64,000 nucleotides of DNA. Origin: Nocardioides panzhihuensis (GTDB lineage Bacteria; Actinomycetota; Actinomycetes; Propionibacteriales; Nocardioidaceae). The stretch's first letter is position 1; every line of letters begins with the position of its first letter. Location: NCBI RefSeq assembly GCF_013408335.1, contig NZ_JACBZR010000001.1:4981001-5045000 (forward strand), written 5' to 3'. A program made the position numbers and the translations under genes. Below, piece by piece: positions 11,297-28,470 of the stretch. The notes beneath the pieces are model-generated. The model was not told the origin of the DNA, did not search any database, and saw only the letters and a program-made list of their open reading frames with translations.

Positions 11297-11332
11297 TGCG
11301 CGCCTGTATGGATTCGAACCCCAAACCTTCTG
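11297..11332 (-). repeat. Island attachment site, tRNA-Arg 3' fragment
   Basis: These 36 bases match the 3' end of the intact tRNA-Arg gene at 26879-26914 with one mismatch (T for G at the 13th base), in the same orientation. The copy is cut off at the anticodon stem, so it cannot be a functional tRNA. With the integrase next to the intact copy, the pair marks the two ends of an integrated element. Confidence 0.9.
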
Positions 11333-11633
11333 GTCGCGATCGCGCAGACCGACCTCTCGGCCGATCTCGTCCATCTTCGGTTCAACTCGCAGCTTCTCTG
11401 GCTCTGACCAGCGGGAACGCCGACACTCCGGGTTCCTTCGTCGATCAGACTACCCGACGTCTCGGCCACCTTCGAGACTTCTGGCAGCGCCGTCTCAGGG
11501 CTGATGTGTGGAGTTGATGTTGACCCCATGGGCGTGGCCGTACCTGACAGGGCCCCGGTCGAAGTGCCGGTGAAGCAGGTGTAGGTCCCACGGCGACACA
11601 CTCATCTGTCATCCATGGTGCAGGTGTGTCTAC
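11333..11633. other. Non-coding stretch inside the left island end
   Basis: There are 300 bp between the left attachment site and the first island gene. No open frame with plausible codon use, RNA gene or clear dyad is seen. Confidence 0.5.
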
Positions 11634-12230: not shown

Positions 12231-12567
12231 TTGCTTCCTCGAAATACTTCGTTCTGCTTAGAACAGTATCCGTACATGTATCCGCATATGAACAGGCTGA
12301 CTCCATGCCAGTAGAGCTGAACCATGTCGCCACGGTCAGGGAAAATCCGATATACGACGCCGTCATTCCCTTATGCCTCGAGTACCACCCTAGAGCATAG
12401 GCATTGTTGGAGAAGTCGCGCTGCGAATCCTTCTTTTTCGGCGCATTGAACTCATGAGCGACTCCCATCGCTCGAGCAGCCTTGGTGCCTACATAATGCG
12501 CCGACATCACCATGAACGCGAAGTGCCGGCCGGCATTCTTTTGTGGGCTCTTCCTACTTGATGGCGT
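12109..12567 (-). pseudogene. Orphan polymorphic-toxin tip, DUF6973-like, without its N-terminal carrier
   Basis: Read in frame on the minus strand from a TAG at 12570-12568, the sequence gives KNAGRHFAFMVMSAHYVGTK, then AMGVAHEFN, then DFSNNAYALGW. The arrangement RH, then AHE, then D-x-x-NN-x-x-G is that of the DUF6973 family of toxin tips seen at the ends of large secreted proteins. The first ATG (12513) comes after the conserved RH, and no start codon lies between the stop and RH. The module thus appears to be a displaced C-terminal cassette rather than a complete gene. It lies just downstream of the intact RHS toxin and its immunity gene, where silent spare tips are usual. The last 40 residues overlap the next gene in another frame and may be meaningless. 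Confidence 0.5.
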
Positions 12568-12655
12568 CTATTTGTTTCTGTTTAAACTAGAGGGTTCCGG
12601 GCCATCGCGTCCCTGAACTCCCATTCCTCAGAGGCCAGGCTCGGGTGTGCCTTGC

Positions 12656-13417
12656 TTACCGGTTGCGCGCTGCACTGGCAGCCAACTCGAGGCTGCTGAC
12701 CAGATCGGCAACCGGTAACTTGAACCGAACACCGGCTTGGCGAACAAGATCTACGACGAGCTCAATCCCCACATCTGACCGGTCCTCGGGGAGGGCATCG
12801 AGATCGAACACCGCAGACACCTTGCACCGCCCGTTACGACGGGAAAACTTCGGAGGCTCAACGGTGCCATCCATATGCCACGGGAAAATCTCGACATAGA
12901 CCGACTTGACCTCACCGCTGTCAACGACAGCCTGAAGCGCCTTGTCGCTCTCGACAATCTCCTCCGCACGTTCGAAACCGCGCGCGATGTTGGGCACCCC
13001 CCAGTCGGCGACATCGGCTACAACCGAGAAGATCAGCTTCCCGTCGGCCCAATCACCCTCAGGCTCCTCAGCCTCCGCCTCCAAGACCTCCATCAGCTCG
13101 AGCCCCCGCTCCACAGGCTCAGGAACGGTCACCACACCAGCAGCGATCGCCTCCGCAGTCCGGTCACGCCCGCCCGCCAAGAGCATCATTGCCGCGGCCA
13201 ACTTCGCATCCCCGACATAGGAACAACCCTCGCCATCGACGAGATCGACCACCGACACAGCCTCGAGCGTCCTGTCCAGGTGACCCCGAAAGTCCTTGAG
13301 CTGTCTCTGCGAGAACAGCCGCAGCATGTTGCGAAACATAGCGAGGTCGTCCGAATCATCGACGCCCGTCGAGAGCAGCTCCCACATGATCCGTGAGCGT
13401 GTGAGTTGGGCCCTCAT
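12656..13417 (-). CDS. DUF4240-like immunity protein of the RHS toxin
   Basis: A 253-residue cytoplasmic protein starting at ATG 13417, which overlaps the RHS stop by one base (TGATG); an upstream extension of the frame runs into the RHS gene and is ignored. The N-terminal 110 residues (MWELLSTG, FSQRQLKDFRGHLDRTLEA, GEGCSYVGDAKLAAAMMLLAGGRDRTAEAI) follow the pattern of DUF4240. That pattern is F/M-W-x-L-I, L-S-x-x-x-L-x-x-F-x-x-x-x-D, then a G-C/G-S region and an LI-x-x-GR helix. DUF4240 proteins are known as immunity partners in polymorphic toxin loci. The remaining 140 residues are unassigned. Tight coupling to the toxin supports co-production and protection of the maker. Confidence 0.7.
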   Translation of the reverse strand: MRAQLTRSRIMWELLSTGVDDSDDLAMFRNMLRLFSQRQLKDFRGHLDRTLEAVSVVDLVDGEGCSYVGDAKLAAAMMLLAGGRDRTAEAIAAGVVTVPEPVERGLELMEVLEAEAEEPEGDWADGKLIFSVVADVADWGVPNIARGFERAEEIVESDKALQAVVDSGEVKSVYVEIFPWHMDGTVEPPKFSRRNGRCKVSAVFDLDALPEDRSDVGIELVVDLVRQAGVRFKLPVADLVSSLELAASAARNR

Positions 13418-16400
13418 CAGATACAACTCAAGTATTGTCCGGGCGGGCAGTGCCCATGTCTCTTGGCATACTTCCAGATCAAACCAGCCTCGGCCATACG
13501 GGCATAGTACCAGCCATAAACGTAGAACTTCGCCGACCATTTGCACTTGCTGCCGTAGTACCTTCCGCATTTGGGCAACTGGCTCGCGGGACGGGACGGA
13601 CCGTGGCGCGAGATTCCGTACTTGTAGGTGCGCCCTGAACTGACGTTGTAGATCCGATAAACGAGATATCTCGATCCTCGGTGGTTCCATGCGGAAGGTG
13701 CGAATGGGTTCGGGAACGGAATCGAGAAGCTTCGTACCTTTACGTTGCAGCCAAATGTGCAGTTTCGAAGCAGGTACCAGGTCAGCATGATGAGGCCCGC
13801 AGTAACGGCGAAGATCGCCAGGAGAAAAGCCGCGGCGTCATCGACCCCGGCGATTAGGCCGCTCGTGTCGGAACTGTTGACTGGATCAGCCGGATAGGCG
13901 TAGGCGGTTGCGTTTCCTCCGAGCACTCTATCGACGCTGAGGAACGAGCCGGAGATGGGATTGTAGAGGCGAGCTCCCATGAGCGTGAGGCCGCCGAGGT
14001 TCGTGGATGCGCGTTGGCTGGACCCGAGGTACCCGTATCGCGAATCTGGTCTGGAACTGCCTGTCACGGCGTTGCCGAACTCGTCAGTTTCGCCGTAGTT
14101 CCTTAGGCCTGGTTCTTCCAGGCCGACGGTCGCGACGGTGTCCCCGTGAAGGTTCGCGAGGTTGAGGGTGGCCGTGGTATCTGTGATCGAGGCCACCATG
14201 CCGGCGGTTCCGATCGAGACGTATCTCATTGTCGACCACTTGGTTCCCGCGTTGGTCGAGGTACGCACGACGCTCGGGCTGTCCCCGCTTGCGGCGAAGA
14301 CGAACTGTTCGCGGCTGGTCTCAGCGCCGGCAGTGGTGTTGGTGATGGTGTTGATGCGGCCGGTTGGGTCGAGGCCATAGCGCGTGGTTTTCGCCACCTG
14401 CGTGGGGCCGGTGTCGGTTACGCCGTCGCCGTCGGTGTCGGTTCCTGCGGTCTGTACCGTCTGAGTGAGCGACTTGGCCATGTCGTTGGCGTAGTAGGTA
14501 GCGCTGAGGGGGCTGACCGAGATGTCGGACCCGTTGGACGTGTCTGCAGCTGGGACAGTTTGAGTGCGGCCAAGGGTGTCGTAGGTGTAGCCGGCGTCGC
14601 GGATGCGGCTGGCTGCGTCGTAGGTCGTCGTGTCCGTCGATTTCTCGGTGGTTGTCTGGCATCGGCCGATACCGGAGTCAGGTTCTCCGTCACCATCGGT
14701 GTCGGTCCCGGTAGCGGGTGCGTAGGTTGCGAGGCTGGTGCGCTCGGACGTGGCGCTGAATCCGTAGACCCGGCTGGTACATCCGTCGGCTCTGGTGTCT
14801 TCGGTCTTGGTGAGTCGACCGAGAGCGTCGTAGGTGTAGGCCTGGGTGGATTCCGGACTAGTTGACTCCACGACACGTCCATCGACGTCGAGTGTGTTGG
14901 TGAACTCGAGCAAGTCGCTTCCGTCACCGTTGGTGTACTCGAGCCCGGTGATGGCTCCGGCCTGGTCACGGGTGTAGGCCGCGGTGGTGCCGCCGGGATA
15001 GCTGATCTGAGCCGTGCGGTCCGCCGCGTCGTAGGAAAGCTTGAACGGGACAGCTGAGGTGCCGTCGGCCTTGAGAATGCCGGCGTGGACGGTGGTTGCG
15101 ACGCGGCGGTGCTCCCCTGAGGGCCCGTCGTAGGTGTAGGTGTAGGTGCCTGCTGAGTCGTTGAAGGAAGCGATCTGTCCGTCGACGGTGTAGGACGTAG
15201 TTGAGGTGTTCCCCAGCGAGTCGGTGTAGGTGCTCACCCTGCCCCAGGTGTCGTAGGTGGTCGTGATGGTGCCATCAGTGTTGGACTGTGTGGTGGGCAT
15301 GCCTGTTTTGGGGTCGTACCCGGTGGTCATTGACCGTGAATCGGCCTCGATCCCGCCACCTTGAGTGGTGGTCGTGGTGGTCTGGCTGCGGCCGAGGAGG
15401 TCATAGGAAATGGTCGTGGTCCGAGTCGTGGCCCCGGAGCTCTCCGTGACCCGTGTGGGCTGGAGGGCTTCGTCGTACGCGGCGTAGTGGGTCACCGGCA
15501 TGGTTGGTGCGTCCGTCGTATCTGGCTGCGCTGCGGGACCGCTCTTACAGAGCTGGGCTTCCCAGCCGGCACGTTCGGGGTGACCGGTGACGTCACAGTC
15601 GGGATCAGTGCTGTTCTTGGCGTAGTAGGAGAACACGTTGGCGTGCGCGTCGGCACCAGACCCGTCCGCGTTGGCGGCACCGCCTGGCTGCCGGGACTCG
15701 ATGCGTCGTCCGTCGCTGTCGTGGCGTGTGATCTGGGTCGACCATGTCGGAGCCCCGGTGCTGTCCGAGCCGGTTTGTGTCTTGATCTTGGTCGGCGAGT
15801 TGAGCTTCCACCCGCTTCCGTCGCCCTCGACGACGGGATCATAGACGTTGCGGGTGAGGGTGATGTCGTAGTCAGCACTCATGTCTGCGCTCGCGGCGGA
15901 GTCGGATTGCTCGACCACAAGGTTGAATGTTGCCTGCCCCTCGGGGAGCGCGGGCTTGTCGTCGCCTCCGAGCTCGGGAGCTTGGTCGTCGTAGACATAG
16001 TGGCTGTGGCTTCGATACTGGCCGATGCTGCCGTCCTCGAGAGTGGCGGTGTGGGCAGGACCGTACTCGTCGAGGACACGGTCACCGAGACCTTCATCGC
16101 TGCCTTCGGAACCTCCAGCGACCTTGGGTACTGGTCCGTAGACGGTGAACGCGGAAGCATCGAAAGCGACCTGCGAATTGACTGCAGGGTCAGTAGAAGC
16201 TGCCAACGCCTGGGCTCGTCCAGCCGCGTCCAACGTTCTGTGAGTGTTGCCGGCGTTGTCGTACCACGTGGTGTCGACCAGCCATTCGCCGTCGCCGCTG
16301 CCGTCGTTGGTCACGTTGCCGTGCTTGGCCGTGTTGACGGTTTGGCCAGCGGCGTCTGTGTAGTAAAGCGAGGCGTAGGACAGGTCGGCAGTGCTTGGCG

Positions 16401-19400
16401 TGCTACTAGGAACACGTTCGGGGCCGAAGACGGCATAGACCTTGGTAGGCGCGGTGTCCTGGCCCCACTTGGACGTTGCGGCTGTACTCATGTCAGGCAG
16501 GCCAGCGGTACTTGTGGGCAAACCGTAGGCGATGGTCCAGATTGCCTCGGTGGTGTTCGAGGTGACGTTGGCTGGATCCAGCGGCCTGGACACGCTGGTA
16601 AGACGCCCGGTGGAGTCGTAGTCGAACTGCCAGGGTTTCTGGCCAGGTGCGGCCGCGCTCACGAGCAGAGTCCTGCCACCTACTGTGGTGTAGTCGTAGC
16701 TGGCACACAGCGCCGTCTTGGCGCCGGCACCGTCAGGGTCAGGCCCGCAGACGTCGACGAGTTGACCAGCGGCGTTGTAGGAGTAGGTGGCCAGGGTGGT
16801 GAGCCCTGTGGTGCCTGCGATGCCTCGCTCGATCTTGGTGACCCGTTTGGCATCGTCGGCACCGGTGTAGGAGATCTGCAGCCAACGACACCCGCTGGTC
16901 TGCTGAACTGGCGTACAAGTGGCGGCGACCCCAGCCTCAGTCTGGCCGATCCAGGTTGTGCCATCGACACTACCGCTGAACGAGGTGGTACCTCCTCCAT
17001 TCGCCTTCGCCAAGACCCATTCCTCTGGTTCAGTGCCCGGCGTCGTGTCGGTGGCATCGGGCCGCTTCCAGGTCCATGTCGTGCTCACCTGCTGCGGACG
17101 GGTCACCACTACGCTCGATGGGGCCTGAGCCGATGCCGGCGACAGGACGAGACGCGAACCGTCTTCACCACCAGTTGGAACGAACGTAACCGGACCTGTC
17201 GGGTTGACAACATCAGCGCTGTTATCTGCCGGGGTGTAGGTCTGGGACGCATTCCCAGCGGTGACAAGGACAAAAGTGGCGTCCTTGGCTCGGTTGTCTA
17301 CCAGATAGGCGTCGGAGTCACCTTCCGAGAGCAGCTCGGTTGACCAGCCAAGGCCGAACTCACCCGGGCTGGAGGTGGCAGCATCGTAAGAGGAGAACGT
17401 ACGCCCAACCCCTGCGAGAGTGTCCACAGCATCGGTCTCGCTGAAGGCGACCTCGCCTGTCAAGAGCGCGACGCTGGCCGGTCCGAGATCAGTGGTCGGG
17501 AAGTTGTCACCGAACGCAGAGGGAACCAGCTCGACAGGCTGCGCCGGCGTGCAGGCATCTGTCGCCCCGCTGGGATAGCTGAAGCAGACTCGAAGCTCGA
17601 TATGCGACGGTGCCTTGATCTCGACGGGGTCAGCCTCGGTTCCGGCCGCTGGGTCCGCCTGCGCGGAGGCGTCCCAGTTCAAGGTTCCTGTCGCCGAGGA
17701 TGCTGAGTCACTGGTGACAGCGCCATCCCACTCACCGCTGCCCTTGGTGACGTCGTCGGCCGTGTTCCATTCGGGTGTCGTGGTCGAGGTGGAGGTGTAG
17801 CGCCAGGAAACGGTGGCATCCTCTGCACCCGGAGGTCCTTCGGCAGACACTGGGAACAACCCGGTCGAGCGCGTGTCCTTGTTGGGCAGGACGAAACCGG
17901 CAGACCCTACGCCGAACGTGAAGTCGCCAGGGGTGTAGTTGTTCCCGGCTTTGTCGGTCGCGGTGACCTTCAGCATGTGGGAGCCGTTGGCGGGCACCCA
18001 TGACAGGGACGCATCACCCGAGCTGTTCGCGGTCAGCATCGTGGCGGCACCGCCGTCGCGGACGACGCTGAACGACTTGGTGTCGGTGGACCCGTTGAAG
18101 GTGAACGTGTTCGAGGCCGGCCGGTCGGTGCGCCACTGCCCGTTGGTGAACGACGACGCGGTGACCGTAACGTTGGGTTTGACTGTATCGACCGTGAATG
18201 TCTTCGAGGCCGAGTAGCTCTTCGACCAGTTGGTTCCGTCGAAGGCGCGTGCCCGCACGGTGTAGGTCGACCCGTTGGTCAGCTTGCCTGTTGGGATCGT
18301 GGGGCAGACGTTCGTGCCGTTCGTGACTGCACTCGCTTCGGTTGCAGTCCAGGACCACAACGCTGCCCCGGACGCCGTAGAGCCGGCGTAGACCTCTACC
18401 GAGCCCCGCAGCTTCGCACCGGGGTCGGTGTCCGAGACCGTGAAACAGATCTTCGGGGTCGCCGACGTGGCATACGGCGCGGTGCCAGGAGAGACCACCG
18501 GCGTGCTAGCTGTACCGGGGTAGGAGTTGTAGGTCACCGACAGCGTCGGGGCCAGGGACGTATCGGTGTAGTTCGCGGACCGGTACCGACGCCAGGAACT
18601 GTTGACGTCCTCATCGACGGCCATCAACCGGAGGCCGTAGTTCTTGGTGCCGCTGGCCCAGGCCTGGGCCATGGAGGTCAGATTGAAGGACACATCAGCG
18701 GCCGGGCATGACGAGCTGAATCCACGTGCGGTCGACATGTCGGTGTAGTTGGTGGTCGCGCCGTTGGGCTGGTTGCCCCAGGTCAATCCGGACAGGTCCC
18801 AGTTCGACGTGAGTCTCGAGGCCCGGATGGCAGATCCCGTGCAGGATCCGGAGTAGAAGTTGCGCAGCTTCATCGAGGCCGAGGTGACGTGGTTGCCGGC
18901 CCAGGTCTTATTGCCGCCGTCGAACTTCAGGTACGACCGCGCCGTGTGGGCGCCCAAATCGTTGGTGCCGACACGGAGCTCTTGCGAGCTCACCTGGGAG
19001 GTGGTGTAGTCCGGTGTCTGGATCCAGGTGTCAGCGGTCGGGTCGATCGTGAACGACGGATCGACGACGACAGGTCCGGATGCAGCCGCGCTCTTGAGGA
19101 CCTCGGCAGGGATGCCCAGCCTGATCACAGAGACACCGGTGGCTGTGCCGTTCTTGGACAGGTTTCGGGCGCTGGTCTTCGCCTTATGCACATGCCCTTC
19201 ATCCGCCGGTTCCCCTGGCGGGGTGGTGCGCTTCGGGGGTTTCTTGCCGCGCGTCTTCAGCGCTTTGGCTGCAGGGTCGAACTCATCGGGTCCCGTGGTG
19301 GTGGCGTCCCAGTAGAGCGGCCCCGGCGCCTGCAGCACCGACGTTTCCTTGTCCGTGAGGATCTTGATCCCGCCACTGTCGGTGGTGACCACCTCGACCG

Positions 19401-20436
19401 GGTCAACCTTCGAGTTCGTCTGCGCGGTCACATCGGTGACCGTCAACCCAAGGTCAAGATCGGTGATACTCGCCTCGGATAGCGCTGTCCCATCCTCTGC
19501 CGCTCTCGCCGAGGGTGCCGTCGACTTCTGTGCCGTGGTCTGCGCGGGGTTCAGGACCCACCAGTGCTCGAACCCGATGGCCGATGCGCGGACCACCAGG
19601 TCAGCGCTCCACGCCTCATCGGAGGCGACGTCCTTGTACACCGCTGTGTTCTCCGAGACCACAGGCGTCCCGAACTGCACCGGCGACCCGCCGCCGGTAC
19701 CGGCATCGGCACCACCGGCAGCCAGGTCACCATCCAGACCGAACCGAAGCTCATGACCCGCCTGAGTCAGCGAGGCGAACCAGTCAGTCCCACCCGCGGT
19801 GAACGACTGCTCGACCACCGCATGAGCCGGCCGCCACCCGGCCGCGGTGCCCGGAGCCTCGACGAGAGTGGGGTCAACCAGATTCCACTGAGCTGTCCCG
19901 TCGGCCCCCGGGGCCCCGTCCTGCACCTGGGTCGGCTCCGATGCCGTCTCCGAGGTCCAACTGCCATCAGGGTTCGCGAACACACGCTCGGACTCACTGC
20001 GCTGCGAGATGTCCTCCACGGCCACCCCGGAGGTCCGGGCCGTCACCGAGGCCGACACCGCATCCGGGCGTCCGGGCCGGTCATCGAGATCACCAGGCCC
20101 CAACACAGGGTCATCCGCCGCTTGGACCGAAGCTGCCGCCGGCGTTACTGGTATCCACAGACCGACGACCGCCACGGCCAACGACAGGACGCCGACAAGA
20201 GCAGCCAATGTCCCTGGACGGACACAACGAGCACGAAAAAAGATGAACGAGTCGACGAATAGGTCAGACCCGCGGTTAGACAGGTGTCGGAGGGCATGGG
20301 AAAGCACACCGGGGTGGGGGAGATTCACTGGACTCCTGAAGAATCGAACAATCAGAAACGCATCTCCGACCCCGAGCCGGCGAGCAAGCGGAAACATAAG
20401 CCGGCGGGGGTATCGCTCGGCAATTTTCGAGCCCAT
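13417..20436 (-). CDS. Secreted RHS/YD-repeat polymorphic toxin with GIY-YIG-like nuclease tip
   Basis: A protein of about 2339 residues. A long charged N-tail precedes a signal/membrane helix (about 73-98, LAALVGVLSLAVAVVGLWIP, then AAA). Next comes a DNRLRE-type beta domain (TADTWIQTP, LRVGTNDLG, RSYLKFD), fibronectin-like segments and a long run of YD repeats such as YTYDALGRLTKTED and YTYDTLGRTQTVP. The RHS core ends with GARLYNPISGSFLSVDRVLGG and YAYPADPVNSSD. After a hydrophobic stretch the last 90 residues form the variable tip: YLVYRIYN, YKYGIS, then YARMAEAGLIWKYAK and GHCPPGQ. This order of Y, YGI, R and E suggests a GIY-YIG (Tox-URI-like) nuclease. The start is uncertain: ATG 20496 or GTG 20307 are alternatives. 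The immunity gene follows at TGATG. Confidence 0.85.
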   Translation of the reverse strand: MGSKIAERYPRRLMFPLARRLGVGDAFLIVRFFRSPVNLPHPGVLSHALRHLSNRGSDLFVDSFIFFRARCVRPGTLAALVGVLSLAVAVVGLWIPVTPAAASVQAADDPVLGPGDLDDRPGRPDAVSASVTARTSGVAVEDISQRSESERVFANPDGSWTSETASEPTQVQDGAPGADGTAQWNLVDPTLVEAPGTAAGWRPAHAVVEQSFTAGGTDWFASLTQAGHELRFGLDGDLAAGGADAGTGGGSPVQFGTPVVSENTAVYKDVASDEAWSADLVVRASAIGFEHWWVLNPAQTTAQKSTAPSARAAEDGTALSEASITDLDLGLTVTDVTAQTNSKVDPVEVVTTDSGGIKILTDKETSVLQAPGPLYWDATTTGPDEFDPAAKALKTRGKKPPKRTTPPGEPADEGHVHKAKTSARNLSKNGTATGVSVIRLGIPAEVLKSAAASGPVVVDPSFTIDPTADTWIQTPDYTTSQVSSQELRVGTNDLGAHTARSYLKFDGGNKTWAGNHVTSASMKLRNFYSGSCTGSAIRASRLTSNWDLSGLTWGNQPNGATTNYTDMSTARGFSSSCPAADVSFNLTSMAQAWASGTKNYGLRLMAVDEDVNSSWRRYRSANYTDTSLAPTLSVTYNSYPGTASTPVVSPGTAPYATSATPKICFTVSDTDPGAKLRGSVEVYAGSTASGAALWSWTATEASAVTNGTNVCPTIPTGKLTNGSTYTVRARAFDGTNWSKSYSASKTFTVDTVKPNVTVTASSFTNGQWRTDRPASNTFTFNGSTDTKSFSVVRDGGAATMLTANSSGDASLSWVPANGSHMLKVTATDKAGNNYTPGDFTFGVGSAGFVLPNKDTRSTGLFPVSAEGPPGAEDATVSWRYTSTSTTTPEWNTADDVTKGSGEWDGAVTSDSASSATGTLNWDASAQADPAAGTEADPVEIKAPSHIELRVCFSYPSGATDACTPAQPVELVPSAFGDNFPTTDLGPASVALLTGEVAFSETDAVDTLAGVGRTFSSYDAATSSPGEFGLGWSTELLSEGDSDAYLVDNRAKDATFVLVTAGNASQTYTPADNSADVVNPTGPVTFVPTGGEDGSRLVLSPASAQAPSSVVVTRPQQVSTTWTWKRPDATDTTPGTEPEEWVLAKANGGGTTSFSGSVDGTTWIGQTEAGVAATCTPVQQTSGCRWLQISYTGADDAKRVTKIERGIAGTTGLTTLATYSYNAAGQLVDVCGPDPDGAGAKTALCASYDYTTVGGRTLLVSAAAPGQKPWQFDYDSTGRLTSVSRPLDPANVTSNTTEAIWTIAYGLPTSTAGLPDMSTAATSKWGQDTAPTKVYAVFGPERVPSSTPSTADLSYASLYYTDAAGQTVNTAKHGNVTNDGSGDGEWLVDTTWYDNAGNTHRTLDAAGRAQALAASTDPAVNSQVAFDASAFTVYGPVPKVAGGSEGSDEGLGDRVLDEYGPAHTATLEDGSIGQYRSHSHYVYDDQAPELGGDDKPALPEGQATFNLVVEQSDSAASADMSADYDITLTRNVYDPVVEGDGSGWKLNSPTKIKTQTGSDSTGAPTWSTQITRHDSDGRRIESRQPGGAANADGSGADAHANVFSYYAKNSTDPDCDVTGHPERAGWEAQLCKSGPAAQPDTTDAPTMPVTHYAAYDEALQPTRVTESSGATTRTTTISYDLLGRSQTTTTTTQGGGIEADSRSMTTGYDPKTGMPTTQSNTDGTITTTYDTWGRVSTYTDSLGNTSTTSYTVDGQIASFNDSAGTYTYTYDGPSGEHRRVATTVHAGILKADGTSAVPFKLSYDAADRTAQISYPGGTTAAYTRDQAGAITGLEYTNGDGSDLLEFTNTLDVDGRVVESTSPESTQAYTYDALGRLTKTEDTRADGCTSRVYGFSATSERTSLATYAPATGTDTDGDGEPDSGIGRCQTTTEKSTDTTTYDAASRIRDAGYTYDTLGRTQTVPAADTSNGSDISVSPLSATYYANDMAKSLTQTVQTAGTDTDGDGVTDTGPTQVAKTTRYGLDPTGRINTITNTTAGAETSREQFVFAASGDSPSVVRTSTNAGTKWSTMRYVSIGTAGMVASITDTTATLNLANLHGDTVATVGLEEPGLRNYGETDEFGNAVTGSSRPDSRYGYLGSSQRASTNLGGLTLMGARLYNPISGSFLSVDRVLGGNATAYAYPADPVNSSDTSGLIAGVDDAAAFLLAIFAVTAGLIMLTWYLLRNCTFGCNVKVRSFSIPFPNPFAPSAWNHRGSRYLVYRIYNVSSGRTYKYGISRHGPSRPASQLPKCGRYYGSKCKWSAKFYVYGWYYARMAEAGLIWKYAKRHGHCPPGQYLSCI

Positions 20437-21041
20437 TGTTAACCGTTTGTATCTCCCGGGATTGTCCTGAAACGAGACTCCAACAACGGCATCCAAACTT
20501 GAAGGAAGGGCGCCATCAGATCGCCGCTCTGTCCTCGATCCGTGACTTGGGGCCGAGTGCCAACCACCGCCTCGCCCTGTCGAGCATCTGACGAAACCAG
20601 GCGTGGGCGGTACGCAAGGAGTGAGAGGTCACCAGTTTCTGCCCCGACGATGGATGGGGAACTCTTCCGCGCGTCGCGAAAGGCCAGGGTTTGCGGTCGT
20701 CGATCCCGTCGCCCTGCGAGGAACTCCGTTGAGCAAGGCGGTCGCCTCACATTCCGGCCCTGACCCCCCTATCAATCGGCGCGGCACGGCCGCGGGATCG
20801 GCCGCCACAGGGTCGGCAAACGAATCCGCTCGGTCGCTCCGATCGCAGCCGCACGGCATCTCCCCGCAGCATGCCGAGGTATCGAACGCTGACGATCACT
20901 GCCGACACCTGAATCAGCAGGCGCCAGGCACCCTTTCAGCCCTCAAGACCCCGGCACGCATGCTACGCATTTCAGTAGCGAATACTCTCCTGACCTGCAG
21001 ATTTGCGATTGTCGACGGTTGTTGATGGGCGGTGATTTCGG
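20437..21041. other. 605-bp intergenic region between divergent RHS toxin and relaxase genes
   Basis: No convincing gene is seen. This region must hold the promoters of the toxin (minus strand) and the relaxase (plus strand). A small hairpin, GCTAC and GTAGC with an 8-bp loop, lies at 20962-20979, 63 bp before the relaxase start. That is a reasonable place for a transfer origin, but there is no further evidence for one. Confidence 0.4.
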
Positions 21042-23726
21042 ATGCATGGTGGCGTGGTGGCCTACTGCGGGGCCGCGGCGGATGCCCGCAAGTATCTGGA
21101 GCGGGATCGGTCCTCAGCGGATGACTACTACCTGGCCGAGGGCACCGGTCTCGCCCTCCGGTACGTCGCCACTCCGGAGACGGTGCACCTGGCCGGGGTG
21201 ATGGATGGCGACATCTATGAGCGCTGGGTGGCCGGGTTGCAGATCGATGGCCCGAAGGCTGGGCGTCCGAAGGGGCGGCTGCGGAACGACAAGGCGGCGA
21301 ACCGGTTCATGGAGTTCACCGTCAACGGCCCCAAGACCTGGTCGCTGGCCGCGGCACAGGAGCCGAAGATCGCCGAAGCCTACGACGCAGCGCAGGAGCG
21401 AGCGGCCCAGGAGATCATCGGCTGGCTGGCACGGCACTCCACCACCAGAGTTGGTCCTCGTGGGCGTCAGGTACAGGTGCCGGTGGCCGAGATCGAGGCA
21501 GCGGTCATCCGGCACTACACCTCACGCGCCGGCGATCCACACCGCCACCTGCACGTCCAGATCAACACCCGGGTCCTCGCCAAAGTGATGGGCAGCACCG
21601 GATGGCGCGGCTTGCACACGATCGGGATGCGCGACGCGATCGCGGCGATCAACGGGATCGGTCACGCCTCGATGATGTGCGACCCCGAGTTCCGCGCCAC
21701 GCTCGCAGCCCACGGGTTCCATGTCGATCTCGACACCGGCGAGCTCACCGAGCTGACACCGTACGTCTCGGCGTTCTCGGCCCGGTCGCGACAGATCGAG
21801 CAGAACATGGACCGCTACGAGGCAAGCTGGCGTCGCGACCACCCCGGGCAGGAACCCGGACCGCGGCTCCTGCAGGCCTGGGACCGGCGCGCCTGGGCCG
21901 ACGAGCGACCCGACAAGATCGTCCCCACCTCCGGCGCGGACCTGGAGTGTGCCTGGCGGGATCACCTCGCCGACCTCGGCTACCGTCCACCGACACGGCC
22001 CGCGACCCTCGAGGTGACCCGGATCGGGCGCCTGCGCCGAATCGAGTTGACCGCGGAGGTACTGACCCGGCTGGGGGCGCGCCGCTCGGCCTGGAACATC
22101 GCCGACGTGCGAGGCGAGGTCGAACAGCTGATCGCCGCCGCCGGCGTGATCACCCAGGCTGCCGTCCGTCACGAGCTGACCGAGGACCTCGCCGCCCGCG
22201 TCCTGGCAGCTTCCCAGTCGCTGCTGGACCGTGACGACGTCCCCGAGCACGTACGCTCCTTGACCTCACCCCACGTGCTGGCAGTCGAGCATCACCTGAC
22301 CAGCCGCCTCGCGAAACGCGCCGAATCCGGGTCGCCACCCGCCACTCGGACCGTTTCGGCGATCCAGCGTGACTCGAGCCGACGAGAGCGGCTCACCCGG
22401 GAGCAGGTCCTGGCCGCCGCGCATCTGGCCAGCACCGAGGCGCTGGTGGTCGTCGAAGGCGCAGCCGGCACCGGCAAGACCGCGACCCTCGCCGCAACCC
22501 AGGCCGCGCTGGCCGACGCCGGCCGCCGGATGCTGGTCGTCGCCCCCACGCTCAAGGCGGCCAAGGTCGCCGCCGGACAAGTCGGCGCCACGTCGTACTC
22601 AGCCGCGTGGCTGCTCCACCAGCACGGCTTCCGTTGGGACGACCACGGCCACTGGGCACACGACGCCGCGATTCCAGGACCGGACGCGCGACTGCGGCGC
22701 GGTGATCTGCTCGTCGTCGACGAAGCCGGGATGCTCGATCAGGACACCGCGGTCGCACTGATCCACGTCGCCGACGAGACCGGCGCACGCCTGGCACTGA
22801 TCGGCGACCGCCACCAGCTCCCTGCCGTCGGCCGCGGCGGCGTGCTCGACCTCGCCAGCCGCTACGCCACCAACCGGTGCATCGACCTGGACGGCGTACG
22901 CCGTTTCACCGACCCCGGCTACGCCCACCTGAGCCTCCAGATGCGCGCCGGCGACCGGCCCGGTGAGACCTTCGACCAGCTACTGGCCAGGGGCGAGATC
23001 GTTATCCACCCCAGCGACGTCGAACGCCTCACCGAGCTGGCGGCACTCGCAATCGGCATGGATCCCTCGGGCCAGAACGGCGAGTGCGTGGTGATCGCCG
23101 ATACTCGCGAGGCCGCAGCACGGATCAACACCCTCGTGCATCACACCCGCAGGCTCGCCGGCCAGGTCACCGAGGAGATCACCACCAACGCCGGAGAACG
23201 CATCGGGATCGGCGACAAGATCGCGACCCGCCGCAACAACCCCGACGCCGACGTCGCCAACCGTGACACCTGGACCGTCACCGGCCGCGACAAGCACGGA
23301 CTCGTCGTCCACGGCGACGCCGGACGTCGACACCTACCGATGGCCTACGTCCACCACGACGTCGAACTGGCCTACGCAACCACGACCTACGGCATCCAGG
23401 GCGCCACTGCGCACGACGCGCACGTTCTGGTCGGGGGCCACACCAGCGCCGCCTCCGCCTATGTCGGCATGACCCGCGGGCGCGACCACAACACCGCACA
23501 CCTCGTCGCTGACTCCGTCGAGGACGCCCGGCAGCAATGGATCGACATCTTCGGGCATGACCGAGCCGACCTGGGCCCCGCGCGCGCCGCCCGGCGTGCC
23601 CTCGAGGACATCGACCGCTACGGCCCCCGGCCAGCCGCACGTCGGCCCCTGCGCCCAGGCGCTCAGGCCGATCCGCTCGCCACGTTTCGACCGGCGCCCG
23701 CCACGACGCCGGGGATCGGGCTATGA
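21042..23726 (+). CDS. MobF-family conjugative relaxase with RecD-like helicase domain
   Basis: An 894-residue protein. The N-terminal 300 residues are a TrwC-type relaxase domain: FMEFTVNGPKTWSLAAA, then HYTSRAGDPHRHLHVQIN carrying the three metal-binding His near residues 165-175. Candidate nicking tyrosines lie in the ERDRSSADDYYLAEG segment near residue 25. A helicase follows with Walker A GAAGTGKT at about 472, Walker B VVDEAGM at about 557, and C-terminal RecD-like motifs (AYATTTYGIQGATAHD, YVGMTRGR). It would nick the transfer origin, stay on the 5' end and unwind the strand. At 894 residues it is shorter than many actinobacterial relatives, mainly at the C-terminus. It is the island's only transfer gene. 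The start MHGGVVAY matches the family. Confidence 0.92.
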   Translation: MHGGVVAYCGAAADARKYLERDRSSADDYYLAEGTGLALRYVATPETVHLAGVMDGDIYERWVAGLQIDGPKAGRPKGRLRNDKAANRFMEFTVNGPKTWSLAAAQEPKIAEAYDAAQERAAQEIIGWLARHSTTRVGPRGRQVQVPVAEIEAAVIRHYTSRAGDPHRHLHVQINTRVLAKVMGSTGWRGLHTIGMRDAIAAINGIGHASMMCDPEFRATLAAHGFHVDLDTGELTELTPYVSAFSARSRQIEQNMDRYEASWRRDHPGQEPGPRLLQAWDRRAWADERPDKIVPTSGADLECAWRDHLADLGYRPPTRPATLEVTRIGRLRRIELTAEVLTRLGARRSAWNIADVRGEVEQLIAAAGVITQAAVRHELTEDLAARVLAASQSLLDRDDVPEHVRSLTSPHVLAVEHHLTSRLAKRAESGSPPATRTVSAIQRDSSRRERLTREQVLAAAHLASTEALVVVEGAAGTGKTATLAATQAALADAGRRMLVVAPTLKAAKVAAGQVGATSYSAAWLLHQHGFRWDDHGHWAHDAAIPGPDARLRRGDLLVVDEAGMLDQDTAVALIHVADETGARLALIGDRHQLPAVGRGGVLDLASRYATNRCIDLDGVRRFTDPGYAHLSLQMRAGDRPGETFDQLLARGEIVIHPSDVERLTELAALAIGMDPSGQNGECVVIADTREAAARINTLVHHTRRLAGQVTEEITTNAGERIGIGDKIATRRNNPDADVANRDTWTVTGRDKHGLVVHGDAGRRHLPMAYVHHDVELAYATTTYGIQGATAHDAHVLVGGHTSAASAYVGMTRGRDHNTAHLVADSVEDARQQWIDIFGHDRADLGPARAARRALEDIDRYGPRPAARRPLRPGAQADPLATFRPAPATTPGIGL

Positions 23727-23745
23727 CCTACCGAGGCGTGGCGCG

Positions 23746-24063
23746 TCAGCGGCGTACTCGATCTCGCCAGTAGCCCGGTCGACGCTTGGCATGAGCCACC
23801 GCCACGATCGTCAGCACGTCCTGGTTGACGACGTAGACGACCCGGTACGGAAACCCGGCGACGCCCTTCGCGTGCACCGACGGCTCACGATCCCAGCCCT
23901 GCCACCTCGCCCACGCCTCCGGGTCCTCGACTGCGGCGTCGATCGCTGCGCGGACGGCCTGTGCGAAGCGACCACCCAGACCGTCCTCCCGATCGTCGTA
24001 CCAGTCGACGTCAGCAGCGAACTCAGCCCGAGCTTCCGGATGGAAGTCGAACGCAGACCTCAT
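23746..24063 (-). CDS. ParE/RelE-family toxin
   Basis: A 105-residue toxin of the ParE/RelE fold. The pattern FHPEARAEFAADVDWYDDR, then LGGRFAQAVRAAIDAAVEDP, then a strand pair ending VAGFPYRVVYVVNQDVLTIVAVAHAKRRPGYW is typical. The paired R-x-V-Y strand and the terminal AHAKRRPGYW are the usual conserved ends. Family members block gyrase or cleave mRNA. Its ATG overlaps the antitoxin stop (ATGA), the standard type II arrangement, and it probably stabilises the island. Confidence 0.9.
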   Translation of the reverse strand: MRSAFDFHPEARAEFAADVDWYDDREDGLGGRFAQAVRAAIDAAVEDPEAWARWQGWDREPSVHAKGVAGFPYRVVYVVNQDVLTIVAVAHAKRRPGYWRDRVRR

Positions 24064-24302
24064 GCGCTACGAGCAGCCCGCCGAGCGGCGATCTCCGCGA
24101 AGACCTGCTCGCCCGAGACCGTCTCGACCCGACCGCTCACCACGTCGTCCACACGCGAGGCGATCTCCTCCGACCACGCCTCCTCGACCGCGTCGTCATC
24201 GACGACCTCGACCGACTCCAGCAACCGAAGAGCCACGTCCTTGCGCACCGACGGAGGCAGGTTCAGGCCCGCCTCGAAGAACTCAGATGCGCTCAGCGTC
24301 AT
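24060..24302 (-). CDS. Antitoxin of the ParE/RelE toxin (addiction-module component family)
   Basis: An 80-residue acidic, largely helical protein starting MTLSASEFFEAGLNLPPSVRK. The sequence PPSVRKDVALRLLESVEV is the hallmark of the addiction-module component family, in which a helix ending LL-x-S-L/V precedes an acidic linker. The acidic middle and the basic-hydrophobic C-terminus would wrap the toxin. The start at 24302 is chosen by family length; a longer frame upstream has no support. It is coupled to the toxin and probably autorepresses the operon. Confidence 0.82.
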   Translation of the reverse strand: MTLSASEFFEAGLNLPPSVRKDVALRLLESVEVVDDDAVEEAWSEEIASRVDDVVSGRVETVSGEQVFAEIAARRAARSA

Positions 24303-24581
24303 GTGATCAGTGTACGCAGGCACGACACTCCTGCCACGGTGTTCGCGAACCCGCAAGGCAACCACCACACCCGAGAAGCAGTCGACCCAACGGCTGTCGA
24401 CGACTGGTGACGGTCAATGACGAGGTGGACCCAGAACACACCTGGTCCTTGAAATTCGCGCCGATCGAGCGGATAGTCGAAGGCATGTTCGACCTGATCG
24501 GTGCCGACGTCCCGTGGCGCGATCGCGCCGCGAGCCGGGCTCCGAACGCGCTCGGTGGCGGCCAGCAGCATGGGGCGGAGA

Positions 24582-24673
24582 CGGTGGGGATGATTCATCA
24601 CCACCGTGAGATCGATGGCTTTGGTCCGGCACATTGCTCGGGAATCTACGGTGCCGATGAATCATCAGCACCG
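24582..24673. repeat. Pair of related 25-bp palindromes
   Basis: At 24582-24606 the left arm CGGTGGGGATGA pairs with TCATCACCACCG at 11 of 12 positions around one central base. At 24649-24673 CGGTGCCGATGA pairs with TCATCAGCACCG, again at 11 of 12. Both share the frame CGGTG, GATGA, TCATC, CACCG, and their centres are 67 bp apart. They look like two copies of one element whose arm sequence has drifted. Confidence 0.75.
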
Positions 24674-24703
24674 TACGACCTGCGGAAACTCGCGAGAGAC
24701 ACG

Positions 24704-24850
24704 GGTTCCGAGGGCTCCTCGGAACCAGCGGCCGGTCGCAGCCCATCCGGGGAGAGCGCGGGGAGAGCACGGTTCCGGTGACTCACCGGCACCGCGAGCA
24801 CGGCACGGTCCGTTTCGAGGATTGACCGGTTCCGGCGCTGCGCCGGAACC
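24704..24850. repeat. Three 23-bp palindromes sharing GGTTCCG arms
   Basis: The copies are 24704-24726 (arm GGTTCCGAGG, loop GCT), 24771-24793 (arm GGTTCCGGTGA, 1-base loop, one mismatch) and 24828-24850 (arm GGTTCCGGCG, loop CTG). The outer seven bases are common while the inner arm bases differ in each copy. The paired base changes with them, so pairing rather than sequence is kept. Starts are 67 and 57 bp apart. Confidence 0.8.
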
Positions 24851-24858
24851 GTGCGATC

Positions 24859-25083
24859 TCAGAAGGGTCTGCGGCTGGCGAGCCGCTGCTGTCGCATGAA
24901 TCGGCGTACGTCGCCCACGGTGGTGACCAGGCGGCGGCCCAGCTTGAAGAAGTCGGGCCCGGTCCGGTTCTGGCGCCACCAGCGCAGCGTGTTCGGTGAG
25001 ACCTTGAGGATCTCGGCGACCTCGGCGAAAGTCAGCACCTCCTCTTCGTCGCGGCGGGAGAACGGGATCTGCTCAGTGCTCAT
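24859..25083 (-). CDS. Helix-turn-helix DNA-binding protein (AlpA/excisionase-like)
   Basis: A 74-residue protein starting MSTEQIPFSRRDEEE. The core VLTFAEVAEILKVSPNTLRWWRQNRTGPDFFKLGRRLVTTVGDVRRFM is a MerR/excisionase-type winged helix-turn-helix, with the recognition helix followed by a G-x-x-F-x-L-G-R-R wing. It is the second such protein in the island and lies downstream of the integrase on the same strand. It could act as recombination directionality factor or as regulator of the transfer and toxin genes. The start at 25083 is chosen by family length. Confidence 0.8.
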   Translation of the reverse strand: MSTEQIPFSRRDEEEVLTFAEVAEILKVSPNTLRWWRQNRTGPDFFKLGRRLVTTVGDVRRFMRQQRLASRRPF

Positions 25084-25175
25084 CGGAAACCTCCAGTATC
25101 TGTTGGGTGCCACCGATGGGTGACGGCGGCTGCAGTAGCCAGGTGCGCGACGCTCCCCGCGGCGAGAGAATTCAC

Positions 25176-26462
25176 TCAGGCCGCGTTCCCCTCGATGCCG
25201 TCGTTGTCGGTCGCGGGGTCGATCTCGTCGAGGATCTCGGCCTCCTCCTCGCTCATCGCCCTGGAAAGCAGTCGGGGGTCTGGCCGCTCCGCACGGAGCG
25301 TGCGCTGCAGGTGCGCCGTCGGCGTCCGGTCGACGGCCCGGTCCGGCTCGATGTAGTGCCCCTCGGTGACAACAGTCGAGGAGTGCCCGAGGAAGTCGGC
25401 GGCGGCGTCCGCCCCCATCGCTCTGGCGACGACAGTCGCCGCGGTGCGTCGATACCAGCGCAGGCTGATCCCGGAATCGGCCAAGCCGGCGAGCACCAGG
25501 AACTCACGAAACGTACGTCGGACGTTCGGCGGGCTGAGCACACCACCGCGACGATTCGCGAAGATCGTGCGCTCCGGCTGACCGTCGAGTGCCGCCAGTC
25601 GGCGACGAACCACATCGGCCCCGAACTCGGGGACCGGCACGAATCGCTTCGAGGCATGCGTCTTGGGCCGGTCCTGCCGATACGCGCCCTTCCCCTTGCG
25701 CTGCACCACGGTCCCCGTGACCTCGATGAGCATCCCCTTCGGCCCGTCGATGACGTCGCAGGGCCTGATGGCGAGCACCTCGCCCGGCCGCATCCCCGTC
25801 GCCAGAAGCACCTCGAGGATGTCCCGGACGACTCCATCAGGCTTTGGACCAGGCCGCCCCGGCTCGGTGCGCCATGCGCACGCCGCCTCCCGGATCGCGG
25901 CGACCTGCTCCAGCGTCAGCGCCTGCGGTACGCCGGCCGGTCGCGGCAGCGGCGAGGTCCCGTCGACAGGGTTGCGAGCCATCGCGTCGTGCCGCATCGC
26001 GAAGCCGAAGAGCTGGTTGAGCAGGGTCCGCGCGGTCCGAGCCTGCGCATACGACGTCTCGTACTGCCTGCGCAGGAACCACTCCACGCGGCTGGTCGTG
26101 ATCTCGTTGAGGGTGAAGTGCTCGAGCGCCGGACGAACGTGCAGACGAAGGGCATCGCCATAGCGGTCCCGGGTCCCGTCCGCGACGTCCCGGGTCTCGA
26201 GCTCGGCCTGCCATAAGTCGACGAGTCGCCCGAAGGGGCTGGTCGAGTCCAGGACGGCACCGGCGCCGAACTGTGGCCGCTGCAGGATGCGCTGCTTCAG
26301 CAACGTGACTGCAACCGTCTTGGAGGATCCGGTGGCCGTGGCCTGACGCATCTTGCCGTCGTGGTCGCGCACCCACGTTCCGGCCGTGACCTTCTTGCCC
26401 TTCGGCGTCGTCCAGATCTCGCCGTGGGTTCCGATCGTCAGCCGTGGGCGTCCGCCGCTCAT
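25176..26462 (-). CDS. int: Tyrosine site-specific integrase
   Basis: A 428-residue phage-type integrase. The N-terminal domain (about 1-70) binds arm sites. A SAM-like core-binding domain covers about 75-170. The catalytic domain has Arg225 (GMRPGEVL), Lys267 (RPKTHASKR), the second box RWYRRTAAT at 335-343 with Arg338, His360 (LGHSS) and the nucleophile Tyr370 (HYIEP). The first His of the usual HxxR is Arg335 here. It lies 419 bp from the tRNA-Arg attachment site, the usual place for the enzyme that inserted the island. Its ATG overlaps the stop of the upstream excisionase gene (ATGA). The 92-bp gap to the next gene holds nothing obvious. Confidence 0.93.
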   Translation of the reverse strand: MSGGRPRLTIGTHGEIWTTPKGKKVTAGTWVRDHDGKMRQATATGSSKTVAVTLLKQRILQRPQFGAGAVLDSTSPFGRLVDLWQAELETRDVADGTRDRYGDALRLHVRPALEHFTLNEITTSRVEWFLRRQYETSYAQARTARTLLNQLFGFAMRHDAMARNPVDGTSPLPRPAGVPQALTLEQVAAIREAACAWRTEPGRPGPKPDGVVRDILEVLLATGMRPGEVLAIRPCDVIDGPKGMLIEVTGTVVQRKGKGAYRQDRPKTHASKRFVPVPEFGADVVRRRLAALDGQPERTIFANRRGGVLSPPNVRRTFREFLVLAGLADSGISLRWYRRTAATVVARAMGADAAADFLGHSSTVVTEGHYIEPDRAVDRTPTAHLQRTLRAERPDPRLLSRAMSEEEAEILDEIDPATDNDGIEGNAA

Positions 26463-26731
26463 CGCGGTTCCTCCGGCGTCCGGCCGGCCATGTGTCGGTC
26501 AGCGTCGTCGTGCTCCATCCGCGAGAGCCAGGCCTCGACCTCACGTAGGCGGAAGCGGATCTCGCGGCCGACGCGGAAGCCCCGCGGGCCGCGGCCCTGG
26601 CAGCGCAGGTCGTAGATGGTCTGCACGGCGACGTGCAGGTAGGCGGCGAGCTCGGAGATCGACATCACAGCGTTCAGGCCGTGCTCGTCGGTCGCCGATG
26701 CGAGGGTCAGGTGTGTGCTCTTGGTGTCCAT
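26459..26731 (-). CDS. xis: Excisionase-type helix-turn-helix protein
   Basis: A 90-residue protein. MSISELAAYLHVAVQTIYDLRCQGRGPRGFRVGREIRFRLREVEAWLSRM is a textbook excisionase/HTH_17 domain with helix-turn-helix and basic wing. ATG 26731 is chosen; ATG 26665 at the start of the domain is an alternative. It is the first gene after the tRNA-side attachment site and overlaps the integrase by 4 bp, so the two form one operon that controls excision and integration. The C-terminal tail contains several acidic and His residues. Confidence 0.85.
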   Translation of the reverse strand: MDTKSTHLTLASATDEHGLNAVMSISELAAYLHVAVQTIYDLRCQGRGPRGFRVGREIRFRLREVEAWLSRMEHDDADRHMAGRTPEEPR

Positions 26732-26878
26732 GCACGGTAGGTGCACGAGACTCGCCAAGCGCCTCGGAAACACGTCGAGGGCCGTCGATGACGACCCCGA
26801 AGTGTTGAATATCTGTTGAATCTGCATGTTTGCTCCTCTTCTGAGGAGTGCCGCACATGCCGCTGACCTGCAAAGTCT

Positions 26879-26914
26879 TGCGCGCCTGTAGGGATTCGAA
26901 CCCCAAACCTTCTG
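26879..26914 (-). repeat. Island attachment site within tRNA-Arg
   Basis: This is the tRNA-side copy of the 36-bp direct repeat. It covers the 3' half of tRNA-Arg from the anticodon stem to two bases beyond the discriminator. The matching remnant is at 11297-11332. Confidence 0.9.
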
Positions 26915-27060: not shown

Positions 27061-28110
27061 GTGAGCAAGCGTCAACCCACGCCGTCCGGCGAGGAGAAGA
27101 ACGTGACCGACGGGGACCGCACGCCGATGACGCGTGCGATGCTCGAGGCCAAGAGCATCGAGCTCTTCGAGCTCATCGCGGACAGAGGCGAGATTCCCGC
27201 ATCAGACTCGCGGATCAGCCAAGGCGGAGAGTTCGCCGACGCACTGACCTCTTTGATAGAGCTCGGACTGGTTCGCCAGGCCGGCGAAGATGACACCAGC
27301 TGGGTGCCTGTCGACCCGGCAACCGTCCAGGCACAGATCGTCACGCCGATGACGCAAGAGGGCATCCGACTGCTCCAGGAGTCGGCCGATTGGGCCAACC
27401 ACTTCACCACGCTGCGTAGCGCGTGGCGACGTTCGGCGCCCAATGACGAGCGTGGCCCCTTCACCTACGTGCATCGCCCCGCCATCCAACCGTTCGTCGA
27501 CTCGCTCGCCGCAGAGTGCGAGTTCGAGGCGCTCACCGCACAGCCTCAGAACAGGAGAGCTGGCGGGGACGCGCTGGCAGAGGCGATCGCCAAGGAGCAG
27601 GCGATGATCGAACGTGGCGTCACTATGCGCACGCTTTACCAACACGCCGCAAGGCGCAGCAGCGAAACCAGGGAGTACGTCTCAGCAGTCGTGGCGGCGG
27701 GCGGCGAGGTCCGCACACTCGATGAGTTCTTCAACCGGATTCTGATCTTCGACCGCCGGATCGCAGTCATTCCCAGCCCGGAAGGCGTCGACGTCGCTGT
27801 CGCCGTTCGCGAACCGTCTGTCGTCGCCTATCTGGTCGATGTCTTCGAGCGTGCCTGGGAACGAGGGCGGCCGTTCGGACACGGCGACCCGTCCACCCTG
27901 AAAGACATCGCCAGCGAGCAGCGGTCGATGACCCTCAGAATGCTGGTCGAAGGGCACTCGGACCCAGCCGCATCAAAGCGACTGGGCGTCAGCCCGAGAA
28001 CCTACGCCGGCTACGTCGCCGACCTCAAAGAGGAGTTCGGCGTCGATACCCGCTTTCAACTCGGCTACGAGATCGGGCGAAGCGGGTCGAGCGCAATCGA
28101 TGACAGCTGA
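27061..28110 (+). CDS. LuxR-type HTH transcriptional regulator with TrmB-like N-terminal domain
   Basis: A 349-residue protein with a GTG start preceded by GGGGAGG. An N-terminal winged-helix-like region (AMLEAKSIELFELIADRGEIPA, then ALTSLIELGLVRQ) resembles TrmB. The middle part contains RGVTMRTLYQHAARRS and a receiver-like segment (FFNRILIFDRRIAVIPS, VAVAVREPSVVAYLVDVFERAWERG). The C-terminal 60 residues are a LuxR-type helix-turn-helix (MTLRMLVEGHSDPAASKRLGVSPRTYAGYVADLKEEFGVDTRFQLGYE). Such proteins are common single-gene regulators in actinobacteria. It is convergent with the short secreted peptide gene, only 11 bp from its stop, which suggests a functional pair. It was not moved by the neighbouring island, which ends in the tRNA. 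Confidence 0.85.
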   Translation: MSKRQPTPSGEEKNVTDGDRTPMTRAMLEAKSIELFELIADRGEIPASDSRISQGGEFADALTSLIELGLVRQAGEDDTSWVPVDPATVQAQIVTPMTQEGIRLLQESADWANHFTTLRSAWRRSAPNDERGPFTYVHRPAIQPFVDSLAAECEFEALTAQPQNRRAGGDALAEAIAKEQAMIERGVTMRTLYQHAARRSSETREYVSAVVAAGGEVRTLDEFFNRILIFDRRIAVIPSPEGVDVAVAVREPSVVAYLVDVFERAWERGRPFGHGDPSTLKDIASEQRSMTLRMLVEGHSDPAASKRLGVSPRTYAGYVADLKEEFGVDTRFQLGYEIGRSGSSAIDDS

Positions 28111-28121
28111 TGCTGGGGCGG

Positions 28122-28331
28122 TCAGCCCCAGGTGATGTCCTTCGCCTGGGTCTTGGAGGCTGTGACGCCGGTGAAACCCCAGGTGATGTCCTGCGCCTGG
28201 ACCGTCTCTCCCTGATCAGCACCGACTCCCCAGGTGATGTCTGCCTGGGTCTGGCCTGCTGGGAACAGCGTGACCACAACCGTCGCCGCCGAGGCCAGCG
28301 CGATAGCCGCCGCAGTGCGTACGAGCTTCAT
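28122..28331 (-). CDS. Secreted 69-residue peptide precursor with three DITWG repeats
   Basis: ATG 28331 is preceded by GGAAGG at normal spacing. Residues 1-30 form a Sec signal peptide (KLVR, then a hydrophobic AAAIALASAATVVVTLF) ending in GQTQA, a fair signal-peptidase site. Directly after it comes DITWG at 31-35, repeated at 48-52 and 65-69: an exact 17-residue period, with the last copy ending at the stop codon. Repeats 2 and 3 are preceded by VQAQ and TQAK, and the signal-peptide end reads TQA. The same QA-type cut could thus occur before every copy. There is no Cys, no RiPP enzyme and no transporter beside it. It may be a peptide-signal precursor; the function is inference. Confidence 0.75.
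   Translation of the reverse strand: MKLVRTAAAIALASAATVVVTLFPAGQTQADITWGVGADQGETVQAQDITWGFTGVTASKTQAKDITWG
28126..28241. repeat. 51-bp-period direct repeats encoding DITWG
   Basis: The 14-mer CCCCAGGTGATGTC begins at 28126, 28177 and 28228, exactly 51 bp apart, and is identical in all three. Synonymous positions are unchanged. The copies are therefore recent or are held constant at the DNA or RNA level. Confidence 0.9.
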
Positions 28332-28470
28332 GTTCTTACCTTCCTGGTCTCGAGGCCGATGCCGGTGCCGAGAGGCCTACGGAATGATTATTGTGCAGGT
28401 TGGGTACTTTCGGGTAACCCATGTTCCGGCGTGCGGACTTTCGCAGTGCGCAAAAATGCAGGTCAGAACG

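Follow-up and report, generated by a model that had tools for sequence, protein, structure and literature searches.

A DxxW repeat-peptide gene and its neighbouring regulator suggest a previously undescribed signalling system of bacteria linked to proteases

Introduction

The window analysed here is a 64,000-nucleotide stretch of the 6.3-Mb genome of Nocardioides panzhihuensis (contig NZ_JACBZR010000001.1, positions 4,981,001 to 5,045,000), in which a gene for a short, apparently exported peptide with three copies of the sequence DITWG converges, across a gap of 11 bp, on a gene for a predicted transcriptional regulator. Sequence comparisons suggest that the two genes form a means of communication between bacteria that has not been described before and is linked to secreted proteases. 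We consider it highly probable that it is a peptide-pheromone system, in which linear DxxW(G) peptides would act on a transcription factor of phospholipase D (PLD) fold governing exoproteases, a small RNA and the peptide precursor itself. The initial annotation of this DNA had proposed a peptide-signalling pair, and that proposal gained support from the homogeneity of the repeat copies, from co-variation between the peptide core and the regulator's effector domain, and from a DNA element common to the pair and to protease genes. Among the matches listed in a search of the open-access literature, such a peptide/regulator system was not described.

Results

DITWG stands at residues 31, 48 and 65 of the precursor exactly as first annotated, with the stop codon directly after the last copy, and the 14-mer CCCCAGGTGATGTC is identical at 28126, 28177 and 28228; the 11-bp spacing of the two genes and every position assigned to them were likewise correct. 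The 17-residue period applies at this locus and does not generalise, as the spacing ranges from 6 to 28 among relatives. The further proposal that a single type of cut would free all copies found no support, because the QA ahead of the copies is not kept in relatives. Searches of Pfam and NCBIfam matched the peptide to no family. Seven comparisons with close relatives gave ratios of nonsynonymous to synonymous substitution (dN/dS) of 0.20-0.72 for the peptide gene, which supports its translation.

The regulator has a best match of E < 1e-40 in 112 of 118 sampled Nocardioides genomes and a match of any strength in 117, and is also present in further genera of the Nocardioidaceae. From 246 loci in this family we retained 177 after dropping identical regulator tails, and 176 after excluding L049, which lies at a contig end. 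A downstream antisense open reading frame (ORF) with a signal peptide and DxxW or SSW/SAW occurred at 170 of the 177 distinct loci; with strict D-x-x-W and a fixed search window, a convergent signal-peptide ORF followed the regulator at 169 of 176. The same search found none on the sense strand (0/176), none on either strand of the upstream flank (0/175 each) and one in 880 dinucleotide shuffles, so the pairing is more than chance.

In the class Actinomycetes the regulator profile matched 89 of 296 genomes at E up to 1e-20, outside the family most strongly in one large-genome Streptomyces-like genus (assigned as such from the names of homologous peptides) with 1 to 7 regulator copies. A signal-peptide DxxW ORF was present at 26 of 28 Streptomyces-like loci, by a hand count in which some loci overlap, and at none of six loci from two other families under the strict pattern, also counted by hand. 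The Streptomyces-like peptides carry up to 10 copies, with cores such as DSTW, DSGW, DVGW and DTGW, and where listed their gene is divergent from a regulator gene and adjoins arrays in which as many as five regulators are encoded. At L285, L287, L288 and L290, 3 to 5 regulator paralogs surround one precursor. The intergenic region there contains TGCAGGAACATGATGCATCG, which on visual comparison resembles the element of Nocardioides described below; with up to 3 mismatches it has exactly one site in each of 16 genomes, always beside a regulator match. Pair and core are thus kept throughout Nocardioides, in further Nocardioidaceae genera and in Streptomyces-like genomes, and loss of conservation, which the initial annotation had named as grounds for dropping the idea, was not what we found. 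Multiple copies, though, proved to be the condition of a minority.

That minority comprises 51 of 193 distinct peptides (177 from Nocardioidaceae and 16 Streptomyces-like), which have 2 to 10 copies; single-copy precursors are commonest (141/193). The core, or conserved part of the mature region, consists of D, mostly T/S/I, then S/T/G, W and usually G. Cores vary between species, yet DxxW is identical in every copy of 50 of the 51 multi-copy precursors while the spacers differ: 268 of 270 within-precursor core pairs were identical, whereas permutation gave 33 on average and at most 54. Mapped on the regulator tree, single-copy and multi-copy states interchange about 15 times, compared with a mean of 29 after shuffling, and the third core residue has changed 33 times. 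Recent duplication could add to this homogeneity, but in the clade of the window strains with DITWG and strains with DISWG are distinguished in every copy, despite diverged spacers. Features of this kind mark a pheromone precursor with multiple copies. The yeast alpha-factor precursor likewise holds several copies of one signal separated by divergent spacers, although the system proposed here is bacterial and would have a cytoplasmic receptor.

Since copies can end at the stop codon (DITWG, DTSW, DSGW), nothing past W(G) is needed at the C terminus, and from the first core onward a peptide may be as short as five residues (DTSWG and similar). A cysteine follows the first core in 42 of the 193 distinct peptides, many of them D(S/T)SWGCGGxC. 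These residues would suit a ribosomally made and modified peptide with DxxW as the modification site and with maturation genes elsewhere; we regard this as very improbable, as most peptides have no cysteine there and no maturation family occurred among the five window proteins around the pair, where no search was aimed at such enzymes. The single-copy D(S/T)SWGCGG(Y/F)CR peptides at L013, L014 and L025, with two cysteines, are perhaps disulfide-closed variants.

The regulator consists of an N-terminal winged-helix-like part, a long helix, a PLD/TrmB-like effector domain and a C-terminal helix-turn-helix (HTH). It had been labelled LuxR/TrmB-like, and here the TrmB/PLD-like fold is clear, with the PLD-like effector domain and N-terminal winged helix of TrmB regulators both present, but the LuxR part is weak and true membership unsupported: GerE (LuxR) scored 11.5 bits in the window regulator against a cut-off of 23.5, and at E up to 0.1 it matched 1 of 34 family members, compared with 32 of 34 for HTH_23 and 3 of 34 for Regulator_TrmB. 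Catalytic PLD enzymes carry the motif H-x-K-x4-D; the corresponding stretch of the regulator, placed by eye, reads F-x-R-x4-D, and its F224 is invariant across the 34-member alignment.

Within this effector domain, co-variation links residues 172 and 175 to the third core residue, and residue 243 to the residue that follows the core tryptophan (Table 1). All columns that reached family-wise significance lie inside the PLD-like domain; positions 300, 337 and 338, which fall within or close to the C-terminal HTH, entered the top-ten lists without reaching it. Residues 182 and 141, considered against the second core residue, gave family-wise p values of 0.058 and 0.17, and we make no claim for them. 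Only position 44 of the regulator separates DISWG from DITWG strains in the window clade (five sequences).

This co-variation bears on the alternative that the peptide is an effector (a bacteriocin, a surface or structural peptide, or a protease inhibitor) merely co-controlled with proteases, while the regulator senses some other ligand such as a sugar. A matched TrmB structure, 2f5t, does bear the title of a sugar-binding domain, and a small secreted product may come under the same control as proteases. We nonetheless judge this alternative improbable, because an effector would not readily explain core residues that vary together with the regulator's effector domain, a single core kept by all copies within a precursor, peptides of only five residues, or genes that remain adjacent in two orientations, convergent and divergent.

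Upstream of the peptide genes, at a median of 86 bp ahead of the start, lies an element of consensus TTGCA-N6-TGCA-N-TGCA-N6-TG, which we call the TGCA box. At 148 of 170 peptide genes it outscored all shuffled controls; the scoring matrix had been derived from these same sequences, and the background was one mononucleotide shuffle per sequence. As a pattern with up to 1 mismatch, it occurred in 58 of 59 genomes, and the reversed pattern gave 4 matches. A second class of sites accompanies a hairpin RNA that 58 of 59 genomes possess, mostly at a single locus and in some genomes as a partial match (G017 has two loci; G001 and G051 each have a second weak match). The hairpin loop UCUCGGG is invariant in 17 aligned sequences, and compensatory changes affect 20 of 28 stem pairs, one strand showing G-U pairs. 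The TGCA box lies upstream of the RNA at 38 of 39 loci (36/37 without the duplicates L401 and L402), on the other side at 0 of 39 and in shuffles at 0 of 39; L377, L399 and L400, with misplaced loops, were dropped. Rfam offered no credible match for the hairpin (of four matches at E up to 0.1, none came near its gathering score). Pairing of the loop with the leader of the peptide mRNA was considered and is not claimed: the complement of the loop, C[CT]CGAGA, occurs in 16 of 170 leaders and in 41 of 3400 shuffles, and half of these 16 belong to one clade. G054, G062 and G066, which are 99-100% complete and have no regulator ortholog, had neither a pattern match nor the hairpin RNA, apart from one weak 30-bit match to the RNA in G066.

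A protease gene starts downstream at 25 of 39 other element loci and at 0 of 228 control loci (1.03 Mb); many of the 25 are mutually orthologous, and the controls are regulator flanks that partly overlap. The 39 are the fetched loci around sites belonging to neither peptide nor hairpin, a few listed sites not having been fetched, and the count excludes L326 (a site like L337, likely negative) and L353. By Pfam, the scanned proteases are subtilases with I9 (two of them from this genome), M4 thermolysin-type, M43 and M10/M12-like enzymes, and most have signal-peptide-like N-termini. L353 is a hairpin locus with a second site ahead of an M43 gene. Two sites of the window clade without a protease, L337 (2775-2805) and L338 (2589), lie near hairpins with a TCTCGGG loop. 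Element sites of this clade between genes that we read as map-like and DUF3263-like, and beside one that we read as DUF1048-like, have no such protease.

As secreted proteases are the sole recognised gene class after these other elements, the precursor might instead be a proteolysis probe, cut only near working exoproteases, so that imported fragments would report digestion yield and the regulator would tune proteases and RNA. An additional cut would be required for 103 of the 193 distinct peptides, either because their first core is not placed directly behind a simple A-x-A-like site or because none was counted; in the other 90 the first core does stand directly after such a site, and a pheromone fits the same data. 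We hold the probe to be unlikely, though less so than the effector or the modified peptide.

Several observations weigh against the pheromone reading. Seven loci lack the pair under the strict pattern (L017, L022, L055, L076, L106, L125 and L126): L076 has SSWG, L017 TSWG and L106 SDWP, and L022 and L055 had no candidate peptide ORF. The 28-residue ORFs at L125 and L126 carry DTSWG without a clear signal peptide and may be decayed or differently exported. The element is missing before 22 of 170 peptide genes, and 14 of the 39 other element loci are without a protease of this kind. The drafts G031, G075 and G100 (84, 89 and 98% complete) hold the RNA and the element with no regulator ortholog found, and the hairpin model matched none of 21 genomes outside Nocardioides. 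The pattern search overlooked elements detected by the matrix in G061, G075 and G100, so the element's absence from G054, G062 and G066 is an absence by pattern, and these three genomes may derive from one shared loss. Finally, when closer pairs are used the co-variation of residues 172 and 175 holds and that of 243 fails, and its p values are family-wise over columns and uncorrected for the three labels tested.

Discussion

We propose the following order of events, in which export, trimming, import, binding, operator recognition and the direction of control are all predicted. The precursor would be exported by its signal peptide, a step for which the sequence argues strongly, and extracellular proteolysis would then set free short linear peptides built on the core D-x-x-W(-G), at this locus three copies of DITWG; the last copy ends at the stop codon, so no residue after G is required. 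A peptide would re-enter the cell, probably by an oligopeptide permease, and bind the PLD-like domain near helix 170-184 and strand 242-249, as the co-variation suggests. The regulator would in turn bind TGCA boxes before the precursor gene (feedback), the genus-wide hairpin RNA and secreted protease genes, exerting control that may be positive or negative, and the outcome would be exoprotease release dependent on density or diffusion.

A wider reading seems to us somewhat better than even: a class-wide actinomycete language in which DxxW(G) tetra- and pentapeptides are the ligands of dead PLD-fold receptors, and the dialect shifts in all copies together with residues 172 and 175, perhaps also 243. 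The Nocardioides receptor would drive an RNAIII-like hairpin RNA and exoproteases, and in Streptomyces up to five paralogous receptors would be grouped around a single precursor of as many as ten copies.

Parts of this scheme have counterparts. In the agr-RNAIII system of Staphylococcus, a peptide signal, a regulatory RNA and exoproteases belong to one circuit, as proposed here, but here we propose no membrane sensor kinase or cyclic peptide, and the RNA is a hairpin. The archaeal regulators TrmB and TrmBL2 share the winged helix and PLD-like effector domain; unlike them, this regulator has an extra C-terminal HTH and its proposed ligand is a peptide. RRNPP receptors have a TPR fold, and the regulator has no TPR-repeat peptide-binding domain, although a small secreted precursor is encoded beside it as in that family. 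The system is not an RRNPP member, because the receptor fold differs. Judging largely from general knowledge and from excerpts of two papers (PMC5641580, PMC4701985), NprR-NprX and PlcR-PapR of Bacillus resemble it in having a secreted precursor beside a cytoplasmic DNA-binding receptor, a short linear peptide and protease control. Besides the PLD/TrmB-like fold, the present system differs in its convergent or divergent genes, its multi-copy DxxW precursors and its occurrence in the class Actinomycetes.

Imported-peptide signalling is textbook knowledge in Firmicutes and little documented in actinomycetes. Small butyrolactones dominate signalling in the latter, according to an excerpt of one paper (PMC4748050) and to general knowledge. 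As excerpted, another report (PMC11303876) describes BldK as the importer of the Bld261 oligopeptide signal in Streptomyces, which is alike in being an imported oligopeptide signal of an actinomycete and unlike in that the excerpt links it to no precursor or receptor; that Bld261 is itself a DxxW peptide is speculation. The scheme makes it testable whether orphan Streptomyces oligopeptide signals are members of the DxxW family. If true, it would provide a new receptor fold, a specificity code that can be read by matching the dialect residue to the receptor residue, and a way to approach the timing of exoenzyme release by soil actinomycetes.

Additional features

Table 1. Positions of the features discussed, in window coordinates unless a contig or locus is named
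Feature	Position	Strand	Remarks
Regulator gene	27061-28110	+	349 aa, GTG start; proposed cytoplasmic pheromone receptor
PLD-like (TrmB-type) effector domain	27451-27882	+	residues 131-274; proposed ligand-binding domain
Codons 172-175	27574-27585	+	residues 172 and 175 co-vary with third core residue; family-wise p 0.0006 and 0.019
Codon 243	27787-27789	+	co-varies with residue after core Trp; family-wise p 0.011, or 0.18 with stricter pair set
C-terminal HTH, HTH_23-like	27919-28029	+	residues 287-323; below Pfam cut-off
Peptide precursor gene	28122-28331	-	69 aa, ATG start
Signal peptide	28242-28331	-	residues 1-30, ends TQA; by eye and crude script; alike in relatives
DITWG copy 1	28227-28241	-	translation, exact repeat search
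DITWG copy 2	28176-28190	-	translation, exact repeat search
DITWG copy 3, C-terminal	28125-28139	-	translation, exact repeat search
AGGAAGG, likely ribosome-binding site of peptide gene	28339-28345	-	sequence
TGCA-box element upstream of peptide gene	28426-28466 (core 28440-28461)	-	degenerate version; proposed operator
Hairpin RNA of this genome	C1:1145827-1145920 (L359:1609-1700)		
Island integrase	25176-26462		
Island excisionase-like gene	26459-26827		
Island ParE toxin	23746-24063		
Island antitoxin	24060-24368		

Distant paralogous regulators, considered as further pairs, had no nearby signal-peptide DxxW ORF at 19 of 20 placed loci (23 loci in total). The sole exception, L156, has a convergent ORF ending in DWGWE, and L157, another distant paralog, has a small secreted peptide nearby that ends in CIGCW; these two are possible further peptide-receptor pairs.

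The convergent pair in the window is flanked by a tRNA-Arg gene and a tRNA-Ser gene, and the nearest named locus is that of Nocardioides albus, with 93% regulator identity. A probable integrated island of about 15.6 kb (11310-26914) lies in the window with the pair outside it: 23 bp of the tRNA-Arg gene (26892-26914) are repeated at 11310, and the alignment of five related loci to the window starts only at 26879 in four and at 26729 in one.
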